A DNA stretch of 64,000 nucleotides from Gammaproteobacteria bacterium (lineage in GTDB: Bacteria; Pseudomonadota; Gammaproteobacteria; Steroidobacterales; GCA-2729495): NCBI GenBank assembly GCA_030583605.1, contig CP129466.1:558001-622000 (forward strand). The letters are read 5' to 3'. A program made the position numbers and the translations under genes. Below the pieces are notes generated by a model. That model ran no database searches. It was not told where the DNA came from and saw nothing but the letters and a program-made list of their open reading frames with translations. Shown in pieces: positions 15,486 through 63,983 of this stretch. Numbering within the stretch: position 1 is the stretch's first letter; each line of letters opens with the position of its first letter.

Positions 15486-15773
15486 GGGGCGCTAACGATA
15501 GCCCAAAACGCGATCGGGTACTTGCAAATTGCCCCGGGACCGGTTCAAACTCGCGTCAACTCATTGCGGACCATTTCCGCACCTGCCCGGATCACCGCCA
15601 CCTAGCTGTCTGATTCTGTCGAAGGAAACTTCGAATTCAATTCCAGCATCGTGCCTGATCGGGCCGGCAGCTTTGCGCTGAAGCCGCCGTCTTTTGAGCG
15701 TTGATGCCGCGACCGACATGGGGGGCGCGGCCAACACCAATCCTGAACTTATCCAAGAGCTGCTAGCGAGACC

Positions 15774-16094
15774 ATGAGCATAGTTCATATCACCGAAGAT
15801 ACTTTCGAGTCCGAGGTCATCAAGTCGTCCACGCCGGTCCTCGTCGATTTCTGGGCTGAATGGTGCGGTCCGTGCAAGATGATCGCGCCCGTTCTCGACC
15901 AGGTCGCCTCCGAATACGCGGGCAAGCTGCGGGTGGCCAAGGTCGATGTCGATTCCAATCAGGCGACAGCCATGCGCTACGGGGTGCGCAGCATCCCGAC
16001 GCTGATGCTGTTTCGCAACGGCGTGGTCGAGGCTCAGCACGTCGGAATGCTCTCCAAGAGCCAGCTCAACAAATTACTGGATGGAAACCTGTGA
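15774..16094 (+). CDS. trxA: Thioredoxin 1
   Basis: General disulfide reductase of the cytoplasm, reduced by thioredoxin reductase. 106 aa with the exact active site WCGPCK, the preceding VDFWAEW strand and the cis-proline region SIPTLMLF. The stop codon overlaps the GTG start of rho (GTGA), so the two are coupled, which is standard for this locus. Confidence 0.97.
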
Positions 16095-17560
16095 GAGGCT
16101 ACCTCGGCAATTCGGCGCGCGGGCGCGCCAAGCAGGGCAACCGCGGCAAGGGTGGTGGCGGTGGCGGTGGCGGTGGCGGCAATAACGACCCGATGATGCG
16201 CCACCAGAAGATGCGCCGCATCGGTCACGAGGAGGACGCACCGACCTTCAGCGAGGACGACGTCATCTCCAAGAGCGAGCTGGACCTGAACAGCCGCAAC
16301 GTCATGAACCTCACCGAGCTGAAGCTGAAGCCGGTAGGGGCGCTGGTCGCGCTGGCCGAGTCGATGGGCCTGGAGAACATGGCCCGCTCCCGCAAGCAGG
16401 ACGTCATCTTCGCGCTCCTCAAGGGGCATGCGCAGAGCGGCCAGGACATCTACGGCGACGGCGTGCTGGAGATCCTGCAGGACGGCTTCGGCTTTCTGCG
16501 GTCGGCTGACGGTTCCTACCTCGCCGGCCCCGACGACATCTACGTCTCCCCGAGCCAGATCCGCCGCTTCAACCTGCGCACGGGCGACACGGTCTCGGGG
16601 CTGATTCGCCCTCCGAAGGACAACGAGCGGTATTTCGCGCTGCTCAAGGTGAGCGAGATCAACTATGACGCGCCGGACAGTTCGCGCAGCAAGGTGCTGT
16701 TCGAGAACCTGACGCCGCTCTTTCCGAAGAACCGCCTCAAGCTCGAGCAGGGCAACGGCAGCCGCGAGGACATGACCGCGCGAATCATCGACCTGGTCGC
16801 GCCGATCGGCAAGGGACAGCGTGGGCTCATCGTCTCGCCGCCGAAGGCCGGCAAGACCATGCTGTTGCAGAACATCGCGCTGTCCATTATCGCCAACAAC
16901 CCGGATGCCTACCTGATCGTGCTGCTGATCGACGAGCGGCCGGAGGAAGTGACCGAAATGCAGCGCACTGTGCGCGGCGAGGTTGTCTCCAGCACCTTCG
17001 ACGAGCCGGCGAGCCGGCACGTGCAGGTGGCCGAGATGGTGATCGAAAAAGCCAAGCGGCTCGTCGAGCACAAGCGCGACGTGGTGATCCTGCTCGATTC
17101 GATCACGCGGCTCGCGCGTGCCTACAACACCGTCGCGCCATCCTCGGGCAAAGTGCTCACCGGTGGCGTGGACGCCAACGCCCTGCAGCGGCCGAAGCGC
17201 TTCTTCGGCGCCGCGCGAAACATCGAAGAGGGCGGCAGCCTGACCATCCTCGCCACCGCGCTCATCGACACCGGCTCGAAGATGGACGACGTCATCTACG
17301 AGGAGTTCAAGGGCACCGGCAACAGCGAGATTCACCTCGACCGGCGCATTGCCGAGAAGCGCGTTTTCCCGGCGATCAACATCAACCGTTCGGGCACCCG
17401 CAAGGAAGAGCTCCTGACCCAGCCCGACGAGCTGCAGAAGATGTGGGTGCTGCGCAAGGTGCTGCACCCGATGGACGAACTGGCCGCCATCGAGTTCCTC
17501 ATCGGCAAGATGGAAGATACCAAGACCAACTCAGAGTTCTTCGACTCGATGAAGCGCTGA
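16091..17560 (+). CDS. rho: Transcription termination factor Rho
   Basis: Hexameric RNA-dependent ATPase that ends transcription. Canonical body: [14 protein letters not shown] (from 16304), RNP1-like GFGFLRS, Walker [12 protein letters not shown], Walker B and Q loop [18 protein letters not shown]. With the GTG at 16091, which overlaps the trxA stop, the protein has 489 aa and an extra 71-residue N-terminal extension. That extension contains a run of ten glycines and an acidic patch. Starting at the ATG at 16304 gives 418 aa, the E. coli length. No ribosome-binding site decides between them; the open, GC3-rich extension favours the longer form. Confidence 0.93.
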
Positions 17561-17582: not shown

Positions 17583-18008
17583 GTGCCGGCGGACAAATGG
17601 TGGCACGATGGCGTCCGCTTCGCCTGCCAGGGCTCCGGCAGGTGCTGCGTGTCACGCGGGGCGCATGGTTTCGTTTACCTGACGCTGCCCGATCGTCGCC
17701 GGCTGGCAGCCGCTCTCGGCATCCCGACCCGGCAGTTCACGCGGCAGTACTGCGTCAAGACCGACGGCCTGTTCCATCTGCGCGATGAGGGCCCCGATTG
17801 CCGCTTCCTCGAAAAGAACCGCTGCACGGTCTACGAGGCACGGCCCGTGCAGTGCCGCACCTGGCCCTTCTGGCCGGAGAACATGGGCGCGAAGGCGTGG
17901 ACGTCCATTGCTGCCTATTGTCCCGGCATCGGCCGGGGAGCGCTGATCCCGCGTGAGCGTATCGAGGCGATTCTGCGCGAGCAGCGTGCTTCGACGGCGG
18001 AACTGTAG
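17583..18008 (+). CDS. YkgJ-family cysteine-cluster protein
   Basis: 141-aa protein with CQGSGRCC at the N terminus and further cysteines in CRFLEKNRC and VQCRTWPFW. This is the Fe-S/zinc cluster pattern of the YkgJ (UPF0153) family, whose function is unknown. The GTG at 17583 lies 22 bp after rho, so it may be read from the trxA-rho transcript. It is convergent with purD. Confidence 0.82.
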   Translation: MPADKWWHDGVRFACQGSGRCCVSRGAHGFVYLTLPDRRRLAAALGIPTRQFTRQYCVKTDGLFHLRDEGPDCRFLEKNRCTVYEARPVQCRTWPFWPENMGAKAWTSIAAYCPGIGRGALIPRERIEAILREQRASTAEL

Positions 18009-56618: not shown

Positions 56619-56705
56619 GCCTAACGCCGAAGCTCACCGGCCGGTATTGACGCGCGACGCGCGCGCCACTTCGCTGAACCGGACCGGTGGAGCGATTTTT
56701 TAGAG
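56619..56705 (-). repeat. attC site 1 (distal end of array)
   Basis: 87 bp from GCCTAAC; the right box reads TTTAGAG instead of GTTAGAC, so it is degenerate. Shares the CCGGACCGGTGGAGCGATTT arm with attC 5. Last site of the array, next to yhhJ. Confidence 0.8.
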
Positions 56706-56993
56706 CCGCGAAAGCCAGTAATGTGGGCGACGGCGAAAGTGACCGACGGCAAGAATCTGAATGACTCCTCCGCGCTCACGGAAAATGATGTGGAACGGAA
56801 ACTCGGTGACCAACGCCCGCCGGATGTCCGGTGCGCGCTCGACGCGACACATGCTTGGGGTTTCGCAGACCCGATCAATCGCCGACTCGACCTGCGACAG
56901 GTAGCGATTGCCGAGGCCCGCTTCCTGCGCTTCGTAGTATGCGACCTGCTCAAGGTGCTCGGCCTCCGCCGCAGGGTGAAAGCCGAACTTCAC
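56700..56993 (-). CDS. ParE/RelE-family toxin (cassette 11)
   Basis: 97-aa toxin of the RelE/ParE fold: FHPAAEAEHLEQVAYYE at the N terminus, FPFHIIFRERGG and a GHFRRRPHYW end. The stop TAA is inside attC 1. It overlaps its antitoxin by four bases. Confidence 0.88.
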   Translation of the reverse strand: MKFGFHPAAEAEHLEQVAYYEAQEAGLGNRYLSQVESAIDRVCETPSMCRVERAPDIRRALVTEFPFHIIFRERGGVIQILAVGHFRRRPHYWLSRL

Positions 56994-57214
56994 CGCAGCA
57001 ACTGACGCGCCTTTCTCGCAACCTCGTCACCCGGCACCAGCGATACCTCGCCGGAGTCGAGCTGACGGGCTCGACGTTCCGCCTCATCGAGCCACAACTG
57101 CTCGCGCTCCGAAGGGCTCAACGTGTCCAGGCTAGACAGCAACTCGTGCGCCAGCTTCGCTCGCTCCTGGGCCGGCAGACCAAGTGCTTGTTTTTCCAGT
57201 GACTTAAAGTCCAT
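56990..57214 (-). CDS. Addiction-module antitoxin (cassette 11)
   Basis: 74-aa protein of the 'putative addiction module component' family: short helical N terminus (LEKQALGLPAQERAKLAHEL) and SEREQLWLDEAERRARQLDS. Precedes the ParE-like toxin, forming a two-gene cassette. Confidence 0.85.
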   Translation of the reverse strand: MDFKSLEKQALGLPAQERAKLAHELLSSLDTLSPSEREQLWLDEAERRARQLDSGEVSLVPGDEVARKARQLLR

Positions 57215-57246
57215 GGCTCAAAGCCTACCACAGGTCAGAATAGCGG

Positions 57247-57327
57247 CTCTAACGTCTGCCTTCACCAGCGCGAAACCGGCAAGCGAAGCGCCGCTGGTTG
57301 ACCGTCCGGTGCAAGGCATGGTTGGGC
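57247..57327 (-). repeat. attC site 2
   Basis: 81 bp from CTCTAAC to GTTGGGC, with internal ACCAGCG...CGCTGGT complementary arms. Confidence 0.85.
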
Positions 57328-57417
57328 GTCATTCATGATGGGGCAGGCTTCCGCAAGAGCCTGCTCCAGCGACGAGGGAACCGCAGGCGTAGCTGCTGGG
57401 TCCGCTGGAAGGCGTGG

Positions 57418-57819
57418 TTACGCTGTTGATGTCGCACCTCTCTGGCCACGACGCGGAGTCAGGGCCGCCAATACCGCGGCCACAATAATCAACCCTGCGA
57501 CGTCGCCCCACAGATGGCCAATGTGCTGTGTGTTGGCGACGGACTGAACCGCCATGACTCCCCCATGGACGATGCTCGACCAAACTGTGAACCAGATGAG
57601 GCTGCGGTGCGCCAATGGATCGCGTGACGCAAGCAGGAGGAACACGCCGAGGGTGGCATAGATGCCGAGGATCATTTCGAGATATTCGGAACGACCTTCT
57701 GCATGCCAGGACCAGCCGGATGGCCAGAGGATGGTGAGCGGCCAAAAGCCGACGATGCAGATAAGCCCTACGACCACCAAGACGATGCGAAGATACCTTA
57801 TGCGATCCGCCTCAGTCAT
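57418..57819 (-). CDS. Four-helix membrane protein, DUF6632-like (cassette 10)
   Basis: 133 aa with four membrane segments and conserved-looking WPSGWSWHAEGRSEYLEMIL and HGGVMAVQSV. AAAGGAGAAG ribosome-binding site before the ATG. The assignment to the DUF6632 type is from memory. It lies 90 bp inside attC 2, unusually far. Confidence 0.65.
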   Translation of the reverse strand: MTEADRIRYLRIVLVVVGLICIVGFWPLTILWPSGWSWHAEGRSEYLEMILGIYATLGVFLLLASRDPLAHRSLIWFTVWSSIVHGGVMAVQSVANTQHIGHLWGDVAGLIIVAAVLAALTPRRGQRGATSTA

Positions 57820-57920
57820 GACTTCTCCTTTACATTCGAGCGTGGACCTTCCAGATCCTTCCCTTGTGCATTTGCGAACAGAGAGTCCTGGGCATAATCG
57901 GGCGTCATCCTTGGGCCACG

Positions 57921-58217
57921 TCACGTCCGGGTGTTCTCCACGAGCGTAGCAATCTGCACGAACTCAACAGTGGGGCGCACACCATACAGGCCGGTCACTC
58001 GGTCGAGTAACTCATCAGTGAAGAACGCTTTGGCCGCGTCCTCGGAATCCCAGACGTAGAAGTTCGCGGCCTCGCGCTTTTCGGAGTTGAACGTGAAAGC
58101 CTTTGAGCGTAGCCCCTGCATCCCTTCAAACCGTGTGCGAGCGGTCTCGGCGATCTTCCGGACGGCTTGCTCGTCAAAATTGTCGCCGTAGCAAAACGTT
58201 ACGATTACACCGATCAT
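57921..58217 (-). CDS. YdhR-like small ferredoxin-fold protein (cassette 10)
   Basis: 98 aa. Pattern VIVTFCYGDNFDEQAVRKIA and KAFTFNSEKREAANFYVW resembles the YdhR/antibiotic-biosynthesis-monooxygenase dimeric alpha-beta barrel group. No attC separates it from the membrane-protein gene, so both form one cassette or an attC was lost. Confidence 0.65.
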   Translation of the reverse strand: MIGVIVTFCYGDNFDEQAVRKIAETARTRFEGMQGLRSKAFTFNSEKREAANFYVWDSEDAAKAFFTDELLDRVTGLYGVRPTVEFVQIATLVENTRT

Positions 58218-58268
58218 GTCGCACTCCTTTCGATGTTCCTGTTAGAGCCACTGGGTCATCGCCATGAC

Positions 58269-58346
58269 GTCCAACGTTTGAGTTCACTCGCGGCCGGAGG
58301 CTGGCGAAGCCAGCTGTAGGCTGTCGGGTGCAACGACGGGTTAGCC
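58269..58346 (-). repeat. attC site 3
   Basis: 78 bp from GTCCAAC to GTTAGCC with complementary GGCTGGCGAAGCCAGC at the centre. Confidence 0.87.
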
Positions 58347-59003
58347 ACCACTGTGCACTGCGGTGACGAATGCACGCAACTTGCTCGCGCTTAGGCCGCC
58401 GTTCTCACGGACACCTGAGCAGATGTCGAGTCCAAATGGGCGGACAGCAGAAATGGCCGATCGGACATTCTCTGGAGTGAGGCCACCAGCGAGGAACACT
58501 GGCTTGGCTACGGCCGACGTGATCTGCGCGGAGACGGACCAGTCGTGAACACGGCCGGTGCCTCCAAGTTCTTTGACTGCCGCCGAAGGATTGCCCGAAT
58601 CGAGAAGGAGTGCGTCAACCAACGAAGAGGCTGCGATGGCTTCGCCAACCGATGAAGGGCCGCAGACGTGGATGACTTGCACCAGCTTCACTCCCGGTAG
58701 GAAGCGACGTATCCGAAGCAACTCATCCGGAGCAACGTGATCGACCAACTGGATCGTGGTTGTGCGGCAGCGGGCGTGCTGTTCGGCTATTGCAGCGGCA
58801 TCAGTGAGGGAGGTCAGCAGAAAGGTCGCCACCGGAGGGGGAGTAGACGCGGCGATCTCGGCGATGAGGGACTCTGCGATGACGCCAGGACCGCTTGGCA
58901 TCGAAGACACGAGGCCAACTGCATCGGCGCCTGCCGCGACTGCGATGCGCGCCTCTTCGAGCGAACTGATGCAGCAGACCTTCAGGCGCGGAGATGCGTG
59001 CAT
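58341..59003 (-). CDS. TrpF-family phosphoribosylanthranilate isomerase-like protein (cassette 9)
   Basis: 220-aa (beta/alpha)8 barrel. Catalytic cysteine in LKVCCISSLEEARIAVAAG (usual KICG), the catalytic aspartate in DALLLDSGN, phosphate loops FLAGGLTPENV and LDICSGVRENGG. Family enzymes isomerise phosphoribosylanthranilate in tryptophan synthesis. The motifs are slightly altered and no other trp gene is near, so the true substrate is open. The stop lies inside attC 3. Confidence 0.85.
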   Translation of the reverse strand: MHASPRLKVCCISSLEEARIAVAAGADAVGLVSSMPSGPGVIAESLIAEIAASTPPPVATFLLTSLTDAAAIAEQHARCRTTTIQLVDHVAPDELLRIRRFLPGVKLVQVIHVCGPSSVGEAIAASSLVDALLLDSGNPSAAVKELGGTGRVHDWSVSAQITSAVAKPVFLAGGLTPENVRSAISAVRPFGLDICSGVRENGGLSASKLRAFVTAVHSGG

Positions 59004-59017
59004 GCCTTGCCTGTGGT

Positions 59018-59077
59018 GGCTAACGCTTGAACTAAGCCGGGCCGCGAAGCGGCTTCGGCTTGAATGAATTGTTAGGC
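59018..59077 (-). repeat. attC site 4 (aadA-like)
   Basis: 60 bp. Minus strand: GCCTAACAATTCATTCAAGC at the left, GTTCAAGCGTTAGCC at the right, with CCGCTTCGCGG at the centre. Nearly the layout of the aadA-type attC of class 1 integrons. Confidence 0.95.
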
Positions 59078-59572
59078 CTTGGCCGCGAACGCGTCATGGT
59101 ACGAGACAGTGCCAGTTGGCAGGGGGGGCGTGAAGGAAATGACTTGGAAGTACTCAGGGGGTATGCCAGGAAGAACCAATGACTGCTCGGCAATGAACCC
59201 AAAGCGTGAATAGTAGCCCGGATCTCCGAGTACGACACAACCGGCGGCGCCCAGCAAGCGCAACTCCGTCAGTGCGTGCTCCATAAGTTGCGTGCCAACG
59301 CCACCGCCTTGATGTTGTGGCGTAACGGAGATTGGACCAAGTCCGTACCAGCCTGTCGCGCCGTCGGAAATGGTTACGGGCGACACAGCCACATGCCCAA
59401 TCACTACGCCGTTGTCTTCTGCGACAAGGGAGACGGATAGCGCACCGGATGTGCGCAGATCTCGGACAATGAACTGCTCGGTATGGTCGGTGTGGGCCGC
59501 GTCCTTGAACGCGGCTACAGTTACCGTCTCAATGGCGGCGGCATCCGACGGGCCTTCCTTTCGGATTTTCAT
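59072..59572 (-). CDS. GNAT-family N-acetyltransferase (cassette 8)
   Basis: 166 aa. Acetyl-CoA motif ISVTPQHQGGGVGTQLMEHA (about 85), VLGDPGYYSRFGF and a YhbS-like end PTGTVSYHDAF. It may acetylate a small molecule or protein; the substrate is unknown. The stop lies inside attC 4. Confidence 0.9.
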   Translation of the reverse strand: MKIRKEGPSDAAAIETVTVAAFKDAAHTDHTEQFIVRDLRTSGALSVSLVAEDNGVVIGHVAVSPVTISDGATGWYGLGPISVTPQHQGGGVGTQLMEHALTELRLLGAAGCVVLGDPGYYSRFGFIAEQSLVLPGIPPEYFQVISFTPPLPTGTVSYHDAFAAKA

Positions 59573-59587
59573 GATGCTTGGTCCAAG

Positions 59588-59710
59588 GCCTAACGATTGA
59601 GCTCACTGGCCGCTGGAAACGCTTGACGCGCGCGGCCGGCGCACACTCTCACCCGCGACGGGCGCGCGCACCACAGCGCCGAGCCGGACCGGTGGAGCGA
59701 TTTGTTAGAC
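59588..59710 (-). repeat. attC site 5
   Basis: 123 bp from GCCTAAC to GTTAGAC. Shares GAGCTCACTGGCC and CCGGACCGGTGGAGCGATTT with attC 1, but has a longer central arm. Confidence 0.9.
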
Positions 59711-59713
59711 AAC

Positions 59714-59977
59714 CTAGCGATAGACCTCACGGCGATGGCCTATTCGGAAAATGGTGATCTCTCGCCGCTTATCATCGATCAGATAAACGACCCGAAAACT
59801 ACCCTGGCGCACCCGGTAGCGATCATCGTATCCGGCAAGTTTCTCGGACCCAAGTGGCCGTGGCTCTTCGACCAGCGAATGAATGCGCTGCACGATGCGC
59901 GCGCGATCGCTTTTGCTACCGACCGCCTCCAACTCCTTTCCCGCGGAGGGTTTTATGAGGAGCTTATAGCCGGCCAC
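59714..59977 (-). CDS. RelE-family toxin (cassette 7)
   Basis: 87 aa. YKLLIKPSAGKELEAV start, RYRVRQGSFRVVYLIDD and IGHRREVYR end, the standard RelE mRNA-interferase layout. Overlaps its antitoxin by 14 bases. Confidence 0.92.
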   Translation of the reverse strand: MAGYKLLIKPSAGKELEAVGSKSDRARIVQRIHSLVEEPRPLGSEKLAGYDDRYRVRQGSFRVVYLIDDKRREITIFRIGHRREVYR

Positions 59978-60194
59978 GGCGCTTCATGCCTCGCACGAAG
60001 CTCTCAAAGGACACGCTCTTTTCCGACTTCCGACGATCTATGGACTCGAGATCCTCCGCGTCCTCAGCCAGCGCTGCTTTAACTGCGTCATTGACCATAT
60101 CGGAAATCGACCGATCGTTTGCCGCAGCACGCAATCTCAAGGCCTTATGGACCTCGGGTTCCAAGTAGACAGTCGCCCGTTTTGGTGTGCTCAT
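59964..60194 (-). CDS. Ribbon-helix-helix antitoxin (cassette 7)
   Basis: 76 aa. N-terminal KRATVYLEPEVHKALRLRAA is a CopG/RHH fold; the tail ESFVRGMKRRGRL would clasp the RelE toxin. A palindromic operator lies just upstream. Confidence 0.9.
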   Translation of the reverse strand: MSTPKRATVYLEPEVHKALRLRAAANDRSISDMVNDAVKAALAEDAEDLESIDRRKSEKSVSFESFVRGMKRRGRL

Positions 60195-60212
60195 CTGCCG
60201 AAGTCTGGTCCT

Positions 60213-60230
60213 TTGACGTTAAAACGTCAA
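60213..60230 (-). promoter_or_regulatory. Palindromic operator upstream of the RHH antitoxin
   Basis: TTGACGTT-AA-AACGTCAA, a perfect 8-bp inverted repeat with a 2-bp spacer, 18 bp before the antitoxin start. RHH antitoxins bind such sites to repress their own operon. Overlap with a TTGACG promoter hexamer is plausible. Confidence 0.7.
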
Positions 60231-60248
60231 GACGCCAATTCTTAGCCT

Positions 60249-60326
60249 GGCTAACGTCCAAGGTAACCGGCCGCCGAGGCGGGCGAAGCCGCGCCGAGTG
60301 CGGTCCGGTTGACCGCCGGGTTAGGC
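60249..60326 (-). repeat. attC site 6
   Basis: 78 bp from GGCTAAC to GTTAGGC, with GCGGTCCGGTTGACCGC and CGGGCGAAGCCGCG inner repeats. Confidence 0.88.
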
Positions 60327-60341
60327 ATGGTCGGATTCATG

Positions 60342-60572
60342 CTATTCGCCCAGCATTCCCAAGTGTTGAATCTCTCCGGAAACGCGATGGATGGCAACGT
60401 ACTCGGTTGCGCCAAGGCGCGTCACATTCTTCTCGAGCACGGCAAATAGATCCCATCCATCCGGATCAAAGTCATAGGCGGCTGCAGGTAGCGCGTCAAC
60501 TTGAACGAGCTCGATAGACTCGCGATAACGTTTCGCCAAGGCGTCTAGCAATTTGGCAGCTACGTCCGTCAT
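60342..60572 (-). CDS. Unidentified 76-aa protein (cassette 6)
   Basis: Single small gene between attC 6 and attC 7. Acidic, no membrane segment or signal. The middle reads AYDFDPDGWDLFAVLEKN. I do not recognise it. Confidence 0.75.
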   Translation of the reverse strand: MTDVAAKLLDALAKRYRESIELVQVDALPAAAYDFDPDGWDLFAVLEKNVTRLGATEYVAIHRVSGEIQHLGMLGE

Positions 60573-60582
60573 GGCGGCGCAC

Positions 60583-60646
60583 GCTTAACGTTTGAGCTCA
60601 GGCCGCGGCCCGTCAGGGCCGCCGCGCCGGCAGCGAATTGTTGGGC
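60583..60646 (-). repeat. attC site 7
   Basis: 64 bp from GCTTAAC to GTTGGGC with GGCCGCGGCCCGTCAGGGCC at the centre. Confidence 0.9.
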
Positions 60647-60666
60647 GTCTACCAGCATGAACGCGG

Positions 60667-61119
60667 TCATGAGTTGTTACTCGGCATCATCCGCTTGAGC
60701 GAGCGTAGCAATGGCTCCTGTTCGTTGTGATAGACCACAGGGCTGCTGTACGTCACCACTGGTCTTCCTCCGATAATGATCAAGCGGTGCGCTTGAAAAG
60801 AAATACTTTTAATGTCGCTCCAGTGAAGAAAAATATCCTCGGTCAATAGGTGGTACTCAAGGCGTATGCCATCGTTGTCCGCGCTGAGTTTTTTGAAGTA
60901 CTCCGGTTGGGTTGATAAGTATCCGAAGAAGGCTCCAAGCAGTGCCCCCGAGAACAGTACCGTCGTGCCGGCTATGCGCCATGCGCTTGAGGGGCGCCGG
61001 CGAAAATCCAGCCAAAACATGAACCCGAGGCCGGTACCCACTGCGGTCAATCCCCAAAAGATGAACAGAGCGGAAAGCTCGGATTGGAACTGATAGGAAA
61101 AGACTTGTCCCATGATCAT
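60667..61119 (-). CDS. Two-helix membrane protein, unidentified (cassette 5)
   Basis: 150 aa. Two N-terminal membrane segments (ALFIFWGLTAVGTGLGFMFWL and IAGTTVLFSGALLGAFFGYL in part), then a beta-rich soluble domain that could be PH-like (LHWSDIKSISFQAHRLIIIG). ATG at 61119; a second ATG two codons on is possible. Confidence 0.75.
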   Translation of the reverse strand: MIMGQVFSYQFQSELSALFIFWGLTAVGTGLGFMFWLDFRRRPSSAWRIAGTTVLFSGALLGAFFGYLSTQPEYFKKLSADNDGIRLEYHLLTEDIFLHWSDIKSISFQAHRLIIIGGRPVVTYSSPVVYHNEQEPLLRSLKRMMPSNNS

Positions 61120-61132
61120 CGCGCCTCAGAGC

Positions 61133-61195
61133 GCCCAACGAATGAGATCAGGGGCGCGCCGCTTTTGGCGCGTCCCCTGGAGCGTCTTGTTCGGC
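61133..61195 (-). repeat. attC site 8
   Basis: 63 bp from GCCCAAC to GTTCGGC with AGGGGCGCGCC...GGCGCGTCCCCT arms. Confidence 0.88.
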
Positions 61196-61738
61196 GCGAC
61201 GTTTTTCGTCTACGACACGAATTTCCGAAATCAACTCATGTCCCTTGTGAAACAAGGGCGCCAGTTGATGACGCCCATACCCTAAATCATCTTCCTTTGC
61301 TTCGACCGTCATGACACCGCTTCCGGTTAGGAAATAGAAGCGAGTGTATGAGGGTTCTGGCAAAGGATAGTTTGTGATTGACGTACCCAGCCTTGAGTAC
61401 TGTTGCGCCAAAGACAGAAATGCCTTTCCCGCCTTCTGTAGCTCGGGATGAGGACCAAGACCGATGATGCCGCCACCATTACTGAAATAGATGCTCACGG
61501 TACCGTCAGCCAGTGCAACCAATGTGGCAACTGCCTCGGGATAGCCTGTTTCCATCAAAATGCCCCACACCTCGGCCGCGTCAGGTTTCAACCCGACGGC
61601 TTCTGGCTTTGTTGTGAGCACCATGTTGCGCAAACCAGCATAAGGATCTGCCACTTTGTAGTCCTTGGCGCCGGCGCCAGATGAAAACAGCCCTGAAAGG
61701 AATGAAAAGACACTGGCCATGATGATTACGCGTTTCAT
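61148..61738 (-). CDS. Exported protein, unidentified (cassette 4)
   Basis: 196 aa with a signal peptide (IIMASVFSFLSGLFSSGAGA). The mature part has FSNGGGIIGLGPHPELQKAG and repeats of small residues, with no known motif. The last ~16 residues (PGDAPKAARP and neighbours) are encoded by attC 8, so the C terminus is read through the recombination site. Confidence 0.75.
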   Translation of the reverse strand: MKRVIIMASVFSFLSGLFSSGAGAKDYKVADPYAGLRNMVLTTKPEAVGLKPDAAEVWGILMETGYPEAVATLVALADGTVSIYFSNGGGIIGLGPHPELQKAGKAFLSLAQQYSRLGTSITNYPLPEPSYTRFYFLTGSGVMTVEAKEDDLGYGRHQLAPLFHKGHELISEIRVVDEKRRAEQDAPGDAPKAARP

Positions 61739-61754
61739 TGTTGTGACGCCGACC

Positions 61755-61874
61755 GTCTAAGTTGAGCGCCCGACGTCAGCGCTTGACGGCGCGCCGGGCG
61801 CGGACAATACCGAAGGTAGCGACCGGCGCGCCCGGCACAACGCATACTCGGGGCGCTCGAACGCATAGTTAGGT
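61755..61874 (-). repeat. attC site 9
   Basis: 120 bp from GTCTAAG (last base off consensus) to GTTAGGT. Shares GTTGAGCGCCCG and GCGCTCGAACG with attC 10. Confidence 0.85.
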
Positions 61875-61887
61875 GACAGTCCGACAT

Positions 61888-62319
61888 CTAAGAACTCTGC
61901 TTTCGCTGCCTCGGAACTACGCGCTCAATTTTCGGCTGCTTCCGTAGCGCCTTGTAGCTGCGCTGTTTGTTGAGGCTGCTGGCCACTGCGTCGCGCCGAA
62001 AAATATGCCGAAACAGGCCCTCGAGTTCAGACACCTCCGCGTCGCTAATGTCTGGCCATACCTCAAAGATGGAGAAGTGGGTCCATTTCGCCTTCTTCGT
62101 CTTGCGATGAGACCTGATTCTGGCTCGTATGCCTCCTCGGCGAGCTATACCGACGTAAACCACGTTGAAGTGAGATTTGAGACCCCGCCCGCGAGGCGCC
62201 TCGTGCCTGTACAGAACGTATATACCTCGCAATCCGCGAGGGACCGTAAGAAGCTCTTCCTCAGGTACGTACTCAAGGAAGCGACAGATCAGTCGCAGCG
62301 GCCCGGCCCCTCGACTCAC
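61888..62319 (-). CDS. GIY-YIG nuclease-fold protein (cassette 3)
   Basis: 143 aa, GTG start. GIYVLYRHEAP then NVVYVGIARRGGIRARIRSH is a GIY-YIG core with the catalytic arginine; the glutamate is in VSELEGLFRH. Small GIY-YIG proteins cut DNA or RNA; the role here is unknown. Confidence 0.82.
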   Translation of the reverse strand: MSRGAGPLRLICRFLEYVPEEELLTVPRGLRGIYVLYRHEAPRGRGLKSHFNVVYVGIARRGGIRARIRSHRKTKKAKWTHFSIFEVWPDISDAEVSELEGLFRHIFRRDAVASSLNKQRSYKALRKQPKIERVVPRQRKQSS

Positions 62320-62336
62320 GGCAAGATTTCCATGTC

Positions 62337-62462
62337 ACCTAACGCTTGAGTTGAGCGCCCGCGCACGACGCCCGATAGCGCACCGAGAGTGCAAGATTTA
62401 GGAACGCACGCTCGGTGCGCTGCACATCGCCCGATGCGGAGCGCTCGAACGACTTGTTAGGT
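62337..62462 (-). repeat. attC site 10
   Basis: 126 bp from ACCTAAC to GTTAGGT. Arms GTTGAGCGCCCG and GCGCTCGAACG as in attC 9, but an unrelated centre. Confidence 0.9.
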
Positions 62463-62678
62463 TGCCGGTCGACGCCTCTTCTCGACATAGTCTCGAAGGG
62501 CGCGATTGACGGCAGCTGAATCCGGAAATAACTGGTGTAGGTCGGGGTCGATCAGCACGACGTTCGTGCCCTCTCGGTACTGCTTGGCGTACTTGCCCCG
62601 TACACCGGATTTGATCAATTCCGGTGAGTACTCAGAACGAATATCGTCGTCTTTACTGCTCATAGGCGTTACGCTCAC
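62457..62678 (-). CDS. Antitoxin partner of BrnT-like toxin (cassette 2)
   Basis: 73 aa. Contains IRSEYSPELIKSGVRGKYAK and NVVLIDPDLHQLFPDSAAVN, the pattern of small antitoxins found after BrnT-like toxins. Toxin-first order. Stop inside attC 10. Confidence 0.82.
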   Translation of the reverse strand: MSVTPMSSKDDDIRSEYSPELIKSGVRGKYAKQYREGTNVVLIDPDLHQLFPDSAAVNRALRDYVEKRRRPAT

Positions 62679-62922
62679 GAGGCGTCATCGGCCTGGCTGT
62701 AATGATGCGAATCTTAGCACCCCTTTCCGTGAAGCCCACGACCAGGTGCCTGGCTTCGCGGGTGCAGCCAAATATTACAAAACGCTCCTCAGATTCGGAG
62801 TGATCCGGGTCGGAAATCGTCGACGACAGTTCGTCTCCAAATACCTCGGTTGCCTCCTCAAAGCTGACACCGTGCTTGGCCAGGTTCGTCGCCGATTTTT
62901 CCGGATCCCACTCGAACTCCAT
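62653..62922 (-). CDS. BrnT-family toxin (cassette 2)
   Basis: 89 aa. MEFEWDPEKSATNLAKHGVS and FEEATEVF, then RFVIFGCTREARHLVVGFTE and RIITARPMTPRER: the complete BrnT ribonuclease-fold signature. Overlaps the antitoxin by 26 bases. Confidence 0.93.
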   Translation of the reverse strand: MEFEWDPEKSATNLAKHGVSFEEATEVFGDELSSTISDPDHSESEERFVIFGCTREARHLVVGFTERGAKIRIITARPMTPRERNAYEQ

Positions 62923-62939
62923 GATCGGTATTTACGGCA

Positions 62940-63000
62940 ACCTAACGTTCAGCATGCAGCGGCGGCGCGCAGCGCCGTCCGCTGCATGCTGTTGTTAGAC
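62940..63000 (-). repeat. attC site 11
   Basis: 61 bp from ACCTAAC to GTTAGAC. Very clean stem CAGCATGCAGCGG...CCGCTGCATGCTG. Confidence 0.95.
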
Positions 63001-63906
63001 CGCTCCTTCTGCTTTCCTAACAAGTTGATCCGCCAGTTTCGTAATATCGCGGCGCAGCGCCAAGCGCTCCACCCAACGCGGAGGAATCCCTCTCTCACCG
63101 TAGTACGCGCCGGCAACCTGACCGCACACTGCCGCCGTGGTGTCCGCGTCGTCGCCGAGGTTCGCAGCCATGAGCACTGCGTCTTCGAAGCTGTCCGTAC
63201 GCGCGAAAGTCCACAACGCCGCCTCTAGACTCTCGACCACGTAGCCCGATCCTCGGATCGTCTCCTCCGACTTTCCCCGATAAGACGCGCGCGAAATCGC
63301 CGAGATGCGCTCACCAGAGAAGACCGACTCGCCGTCTCCGAGTAGGACATCCTCCTTGGGCTGGCCCAAGAGGGCACGGCAAATGACCTTGGCGAAGAGC
63401 CGGCACGCATCAACGCACTCTTCGGCGCCATGCGTCGTGCGTGAGCTCTGGGCTGCGAAACGTTCGACCGCGTCAAGATCTGGATAGAAGCGCATTGCGA
63501 CCGGGGAGAGCCTCATGATGCACCCATTGCCGGCCGTGTGTGGATCGGTGGATCCGGCGTACGGGTTACCGTCGCGCTGATACCTCTGGAGCGCCGACAC
63601 GACGGTGTTGCCGATGTCGAAGCAACTCCCAGTGCTGCTAAGGTAGCCCGTGTCCGCCCAGCGGCAGTAACGATCCATCTGATCCCGGGCGTCGAACCCA
63701 TCTCGCACGACGAGACTGGTGGCCAGACAAAGCGCCATCGAGGTGTCGTCAGTCCACTGACCGGGCTCGAGGCTGAACGGGCCTCCGCCGACCATGTCCT
63801 TCAGAGGCTCGAACGTTCCTCGACGACGAAACTCTACCGTCGTCCCGACGGCGTCACCCACGGCGAGTCCGAGCAGGCATCCGCGAAACCTCTCAGTCGT
63901 GTTCAT
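62995..63906 (-). CDS. ADP-ribosylglycohydrolase-family protein (cassette 1)
   Basis: 303-aa DraG/ARH-type hydrolase expected to remove ADP-ribose. Metal-binding motifs: GLAVGDAVGTTVEF, QWTDDTSMALCLATSL, GNGCIMRLSPVAM and ANLGDDADTTAAVCGQ. Substrate protein or nucleic acid unknown. Most integrase-proximal complete cassette in the window; stop TAA lies inside attC 11. Confidence 0.93.
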   Translation of the reverse strand: MNTTERFRGCLLGLAVGDAVGTTVEFRRRGTFEPLKDMVGGGPFSLEPGQWTDDTSMALCLATSLVVRDGFDARDQMDRYCRWADTGYLSSTGSCFDIGNTVVSALQRYQRDGNPYAGSTDPHTAGNGCIMRLSPVAMRFYPDLDAVERFAAQSSRTTHGAEECVDACRLFAKVICRALLGQPKEDVLLGDGESVFSGERISAISRASYRGKSEETIRGSGYVVESLEAALWTFARTDSFEDAVLMAANLGDDADTTAAVCGQVAGAYYGERGIPPRWVERLALRRDITKLADQLVRKAEGAV

Positions 63907-63919
63907 CCCGTACTCGGCC

Positions 63920-63983
63920 GTCTAACGTCCGCGCTAACCGGCCGCCCGCCCTCGGGCGGTCCGCGTTGAGCGCGTGGTTAGAC
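63920..63983 (-). repeat. attC site 12
   Basis: 64 bp from GTCTAAC to GTTAGAC with CGGCCGCCCGCCCTCGGGCG at the centre. The next cassette begins at about 63984 and runs off the window. Confidence 0.92.

Follow-up and report, generated by a model that had tools for sequence, protein, structure and literature searches.

Does the run of small genes at the right end of this stretch of DNA belong to a complete integron, and is its integrase still at work? The window, the whole stretch analysed, covers 64 kb (G000:C1:558001-622000) of a genome that assembles as a single 3.37 Mb contig, and we extended the region rightward to position 645000 as locus L006, in which a position equals the window position minus 54000. 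A first-pass annotation had proposed that window positions 56619 to 63983 hold twelve attC sites and eleven cassettes in one orientation, with an integrase beyond the right edge. At a probability of about 97%, we conclude that the element is a complete chromosomal integron in a little-studied gammaproteobacterial lineage.

Because Rfam at gathering scores reported nothing in the window, we built an attC covariance model (R1) from an alignment of nine attC sites, all outside the window, so that the window sites were tested independently of the training set. A plain search by fold energy gave several false candidates in the flank and missed two sites, and the covariance model was used instead. 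Across the whole 64 kb, R1 recognised exactly the twelve proposed sites, every one of them a minus-strand site within 56619-63983. Eleven had E-values from 1e-13 to 2e-5 and one (60583-60646) was weak, at E=0.03. It found no attC site in window positions 1-56600, and its other matches in the window were only weaker plus-strand echoes of the same palindromes. The twelve sites bound eleven complete cassettes, the exact count claimed, with the ORFs on the minus strand between them; a twelfth cassette crosses the window edge. One correction concerns the cassette at 57247-58268, which holds two ORFs. Together with the nine sites used for training, they bring the array to 21 attC sites, all in one orientation. 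The features of the window, left to right, are:

56619-56705, minus strand: attC site 1, terminal (R1 36.5 bits, E=1.3e-7)
56700-56993, minus strand: ParE-type toxin, cassette 1, terminal (Pfam PF05016, E=5e-8); 99% identical in G001
56990-57214, minus strand: addiction-module antitoxin, cassette 1 (PF09720, E=7e-13)
57247-57327, minus strand: attC site 2 (R1 E=1.3e-7)
57418-57822, minus strand: DUF6632 membrane protein, second ORF of cassette 2 (PF20337, E=2e-40)
57921-58217, minus strand: YdhR-like monooxygenase, first ORF of cassette 2 (PF08803, E=1.7e-5, just under cut-off)
58269-58346, minus strand: attC site 3 (R1 E=1.7e-5)
58341-59003, minus strand: phosphoribosylanthranilate-isomerase-like protein (TrpF family), cassette 3 (PF00697, E=8e-20; below every NCBIfam equivalog cut-off)
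59018-59077, minus strand: attC site 4 (R1 E=3e-10)
59072-59572, minus strand: GNAT acetyltransferase, cassette 4 (PF13508/PF00583, E about 1e-10)
59588-59710, minus strand: attC site 5 (R1 E=5e-9)
59714-59977, minus strand: ParE-type toxin, cassette 5 (PF05016, E=1e-10)
59964-60194, minus strand: ribbon-helix-helix antitoxin, cassette 5 (Pfam RHH, E=2e-5, under cut-off)
60249-60326, minus strand: attC site 6 (R1 E=8e-11)
60342-60572, minus strand: 76-aa protein, cassette 6 (ORF only; no Pfam, NCBIfam or PADLOC match)
60583-60646, minus strand: attC site 7, weak (R1 E=0.028), placed between two cassette ORFs
60667-61119, minus strand: 150-aa protein, cassette 7 (ORF; sole match EbsA in Pfam, sub-threshold)
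61133-61195, minus strand: attC site 8 (R1 E=1.7e-5)
61148-61738, minus strand: 196-aa protein, cassette 8 (ORF; no family match in Pfam, NCBIfam and PADLOC scans)
61748-61874, minus strand: attC site 9 (R1 E=2e-7)
61888-62319, minus strand: 143-aa protein, cassette 9 (ORF; sole match PADLOC PDC-S14, weak)
62337-62462, minus strand: attC site 10 (R1 E=4e-12)
62457-62678, minus strand: antitoxin of the BrnT pair, cassette 10 (follows BrnT; weak antitoxin match)
62653-62922, minus strand: BrnT toxin, cassette 10 (PF04365, E=1e-28)
62940-63000, minus strand: attC site 11 (R1 E=1e-13)
62995-63906, minus strand: ADP-ribosylglycohydrolase (DraG/Tri1 family), cassette 11 (PF03747, E=2.5e-81)
63920-63983, minus strand: attC site 12 (R1 E=6e-11), of the HTH/Gp49 (HigBA-like) cassette that crosses the window edge (PF01381, PF05973)

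The base pairing of these sites is real. Among the 20 better sites of the array, both sides of the hairpin had changed in 15 of 22 pairs, 86% of cells were paired compared with 26-42% when partners were slid, and the covariation score was 0.37 versus 0.12 in shuffles; the underlying alignment was fitted to R1 and the figures lean towards the model, but the slid controls were far lower nonetheless. As a positive control, R1 was run on 15 further IntI-encoding loci and found 79 sites there; 78 of these lay on the opposite strand from intI. Separately, an attC-like site in a Competibacteraceae array (L030:2162-2221) lies on the strand opposite to all others, and may be an inverted cassette. That the hairpins are just inverted repeats or terminators, unrelated to one another, that happen to separate small genes has next to no probability: hairpins are common in bacterial intergenic regions and Rfam was silent here, but this reading is refuted by the specific boxes, the strand asymmetry and covariation of the sites, and the presence of intI and attI.

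The sites carry R''/L''/L'/R' boxes and fold as hairpins, as a complete integron requires, with two departures from the typical boxes that had been described. Site 61748-61874 has lost the GTT of its crossover box (ACGGTCGGC), and since the triplet is lost there, the two cassettes that meet at this site may move only together. The terminal site, 56619-56705, has a degenerate outer R'' box, TCTAAAA instead of TCTAACA. Site 4, 59018-59077, is about 92% identical to the attC sites of the aac(6')-IIa and fosE plasmid cassettes and matches 3,657 plasmid records; searches of plasmids with whole cassettes gave distant matches only, the attC itself excepted.

Extending the sequence past 64000 located both intI and attI, so that each of the two checks set by the annotation, the search for intI and the covariance model, came out in its favour. 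The intI gene (G000:C1:629912-630931; L006:17912-18931) begins about 7.9 kb beyond the window's right edge, is intact on the plus strand, and encodes 339 aa, with a possible longer start at L006 17795. Its product scores 475 bits against TIGR02249, the integron-integrase model with a cut-off of 265, which places it in the IntI family. It can be aligned over nearly its whole length with IntI4, its best solved relative, and the GLR, HxxRH, GH, and IYTH motifs (R, HxxR, H, Y) are in register. The layout is the classical divergent one: intI, on the plus strand, is transcribed away from the array, whose cassettes occupy the minus strand. At the cassette boundary left of intI (L006 ~17772-17786) lies the attI core TAACTATAAGTAGAC; the core TAACTATAWGTAGA stands at the matching place in the four genus genomes compared (G000, G003, G004, and G006), and G000 and a second strain, G001, diverge exactly there. 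Two overlapping palindromes between attI and intI (L006:17790-17835), GCGGCATTACATTGCCGC and CCGCACAAGTGCGG, are possibly an operator. A simple sigma-70 scan of L006 17600-18000 recognised no Pc or intI promoter. Taken alone, the window lacks an integrase and could pass for a CALIN, a cassette array without its own integrase that was filled and then abandoned; this reading is refuted by the intact intI and conserved attI that adjoin the array, the first cassettes differ between strains, and its probability is very small.

The whole array reaches from window 56619, its distal end, to attI near L006 17772, a span of 15.2 kb, and contains 21 attC sites that can be recognised and a further, broken one, for at least 22 cassettes. 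Its GC content is 58%, versus 69% and 64% in the flanks. The suggestion of a chromosomal integron was borne out: the single 3.37 Mb contig carries dnaA, intI adjoins the 21 sites, and the array is flanked by ordinary genes, with ABC-transporter genes at the left (distal) end and both flanks conserved in G001. A sedentary chromosomal integron has been defined as a complete integron carrying 11 or more attC sites (PMC11023631), and the 21 sites found here place the array in that class.

Six cassettes of the whole array encode toxin-antitoxin pairs according to Pfam: ParE with an addiction-module antitoxin, ParE with RHH, three BrnT pairs, and Gp49 with HTH. The remaining identified cassettes encode DUF6632 with a YdhR-like protein, a TrpF-like isomerase, two GNAT proteins, DraG, a P-loop kinase-like protein, and an Mrr-type restriction enzyme (PADLOC mREase_IV, E=2e-98). 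Several cassettes had no family match at all; beside the Mrr-type cassette, those without an assigned function are candidates for testing in stress or phage defence. No scanned cassette protein reached the curated cut-off of a resistance family, in agreement with the earlier observation that no recognised resistance gene is present. An IS3-family element with two ORFs (L006 ~15550-16774) interrupts a GNAT-like cassette and sits between parts of two cassettes; inspection by eye showed no target-site duplication. The DraG cassette occurs a second time in part: its 3' end is repeated (window 62942-63197 and L006:10644-10898, 99.6% over 256 bp), and the second copy is truncated at a 26-bp end of the same IS, beside half an attC, which suggests that IS-linked deletions have occurred inside the array.

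To ask how the array varies, we compared it with G001, a second genome of the same species that was deposited as a Nevskiales MAG (matching contig WYBE01000026.1, 'Nevskiales bacterium isolate PRO7'). It is a draft in which the array is split between two contigs that share a 33-bp overlap at their ends. IntI is identical in the two strains and the flanks are 98-99% identical. The G001 array has about four cassettes: the terminal ParE toxin-antitoxin cassette, the only one shared by the two strains, followed by three that are absent from G000. None of the remaining G000 cassettes was found in G001, where matches were confined to attC-level similarity, the IS, and the flanks. One point of divergence between the strains is the GTTAG of attI; the other is the attC above the terminal cassette, no more than a few bases from its crossover point. 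Integrase-mediated gain and loss is the simplest account of this difference and, because it starts at the attI and attC crossover points, integrase activity was probably recent. G001 also has a lone strong attC-like site (G001:C31:17675-17767, 59 bits) on a contig other than the integron's, and several IS-end fragments lie at its contig ends. G003, which belongs to a different species of the genus, has three toxin-antitoxin cassettes in common with G000 at 85-89% DNA identity (88% for the BrnT pair of cassette 10), arranged in a different order.

These comparisons bear on whether the array is a frozen former integron, in which IntI has lost its function and the strains came to differ through homologous recombination or through deletions mediated by the IS. 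The IS3-family copy and IS-end scar within the array, its two degenerate attC sites, and the silence of the simple promoter scan are what such a relic might look like, but IntI is intact and identical in the two strains, G001 has new cassettes rather than merely fewer, and the breakpoints fall at crossover points; we consider a frozen array unlikely. On the preferred reading of a complete integron, IntI would be catalytically active today. It would insert circular cassettes at attI and excise them by recombining attC with attC on folded single strands. The right end would be the point of entry, with the old cassettes found at the left, beside the ABC-transporter genes.

The nearest IntI relatives, with up to 70% identity, belong to other unclassified Gammaproteobacteria (L009-L012, L014, L035, and L058), and the IntI proteins of genus members G003, G004, G006, and G009 form a clade separate from that of G000 (100/99 support). 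Because of this separation, and because the ABC-transporter gene that flanks the G000 array is located elsewhere than the integron in G003, the integron platform seems to have been acquired separately from that of the other genus members. Our literature search found nothing relevant on an integron in Nevskiales.

The outer box of the terminal attC reads TCTAAAA in both G000 and G001; in the homologous cassette of G003 it reads TCTAACA. If TCTAAAA weakens integrase binding, the last cassette would not leave easily, and since it encodes a toxin and its antitoxin, losing it would be costly. The damaged box may thus make this cassette a locked anchor, and toxin-antitoxin cassettes may slow loss of the array more generally.

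Orientation relative to replication could also matter. GC skew, computed on the window and on 40 sampled stretches of 20 kb, turned from negative to positive at dnaA (252 kb) and back between ~1.95 and 2.02 Mb, which together with the position of dnaA puts the array (614.6-629.8 kb) in the right replichore, replicated left to right. Transcription of the minus-strand cassettes runs against the fork, and the recombinogenic bottom strand of attC is the lagging-strand template, a departure from the usual placement on the leading-strand template, which is neither universal nor defining. Among 30 sedentary integrons, 25 were reported in the orientation opposite to this array and 5 in the same one, and arrays oriented like it never exceeded 22 cassettes (PMC5371416); inverting a Vibrio array raised excision (PMC11023631). 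Array size and turnover between strains would fit these reports of the head-on orientation, as a comparison of two strains only and not a test, and the orientation may speed cassette turnover. A fuller picture, in which a head-on, high-turnover integron has had all but its last cassette replaced within the species while a locked toxin-antitoxin cassette with a damaged attC guards the distal boundary, is a tentative one, and we would put the odds against it.

This kind of integron is already known, and the locus adds one more example and a useful natural strain pair: judged by its sequence, a complete integron, apparently active, from a gammaproteobacterial lineage that has been little studied, in which G000 and G001 allow cassette replacement, replication orientation, and toxin-antitoxin anchoring to be compared directly. 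Like the sedentary chromosomal integrons of the Vibrio, Xanthomonas, and Pseudomonas types, it has intI, attI, and many cassettes in the same orientation, mostly of unknown function, with many toxin-antitoxin cassettes and embedded IS3 elements. It is much smaller than the Vibrio type and, unlike most sedentary chromosomal integrons, has its attC bottom strand on the lagging-strand template. One attC (59018-59077) closely resembles those of plasmid resistance cassettes, a likeness to the cassettes of class 1 mobile integrons; in contrast to those integrons, the array is chromosomal rather than carried on a transposon or plasmid and has no recognised resistance gene.
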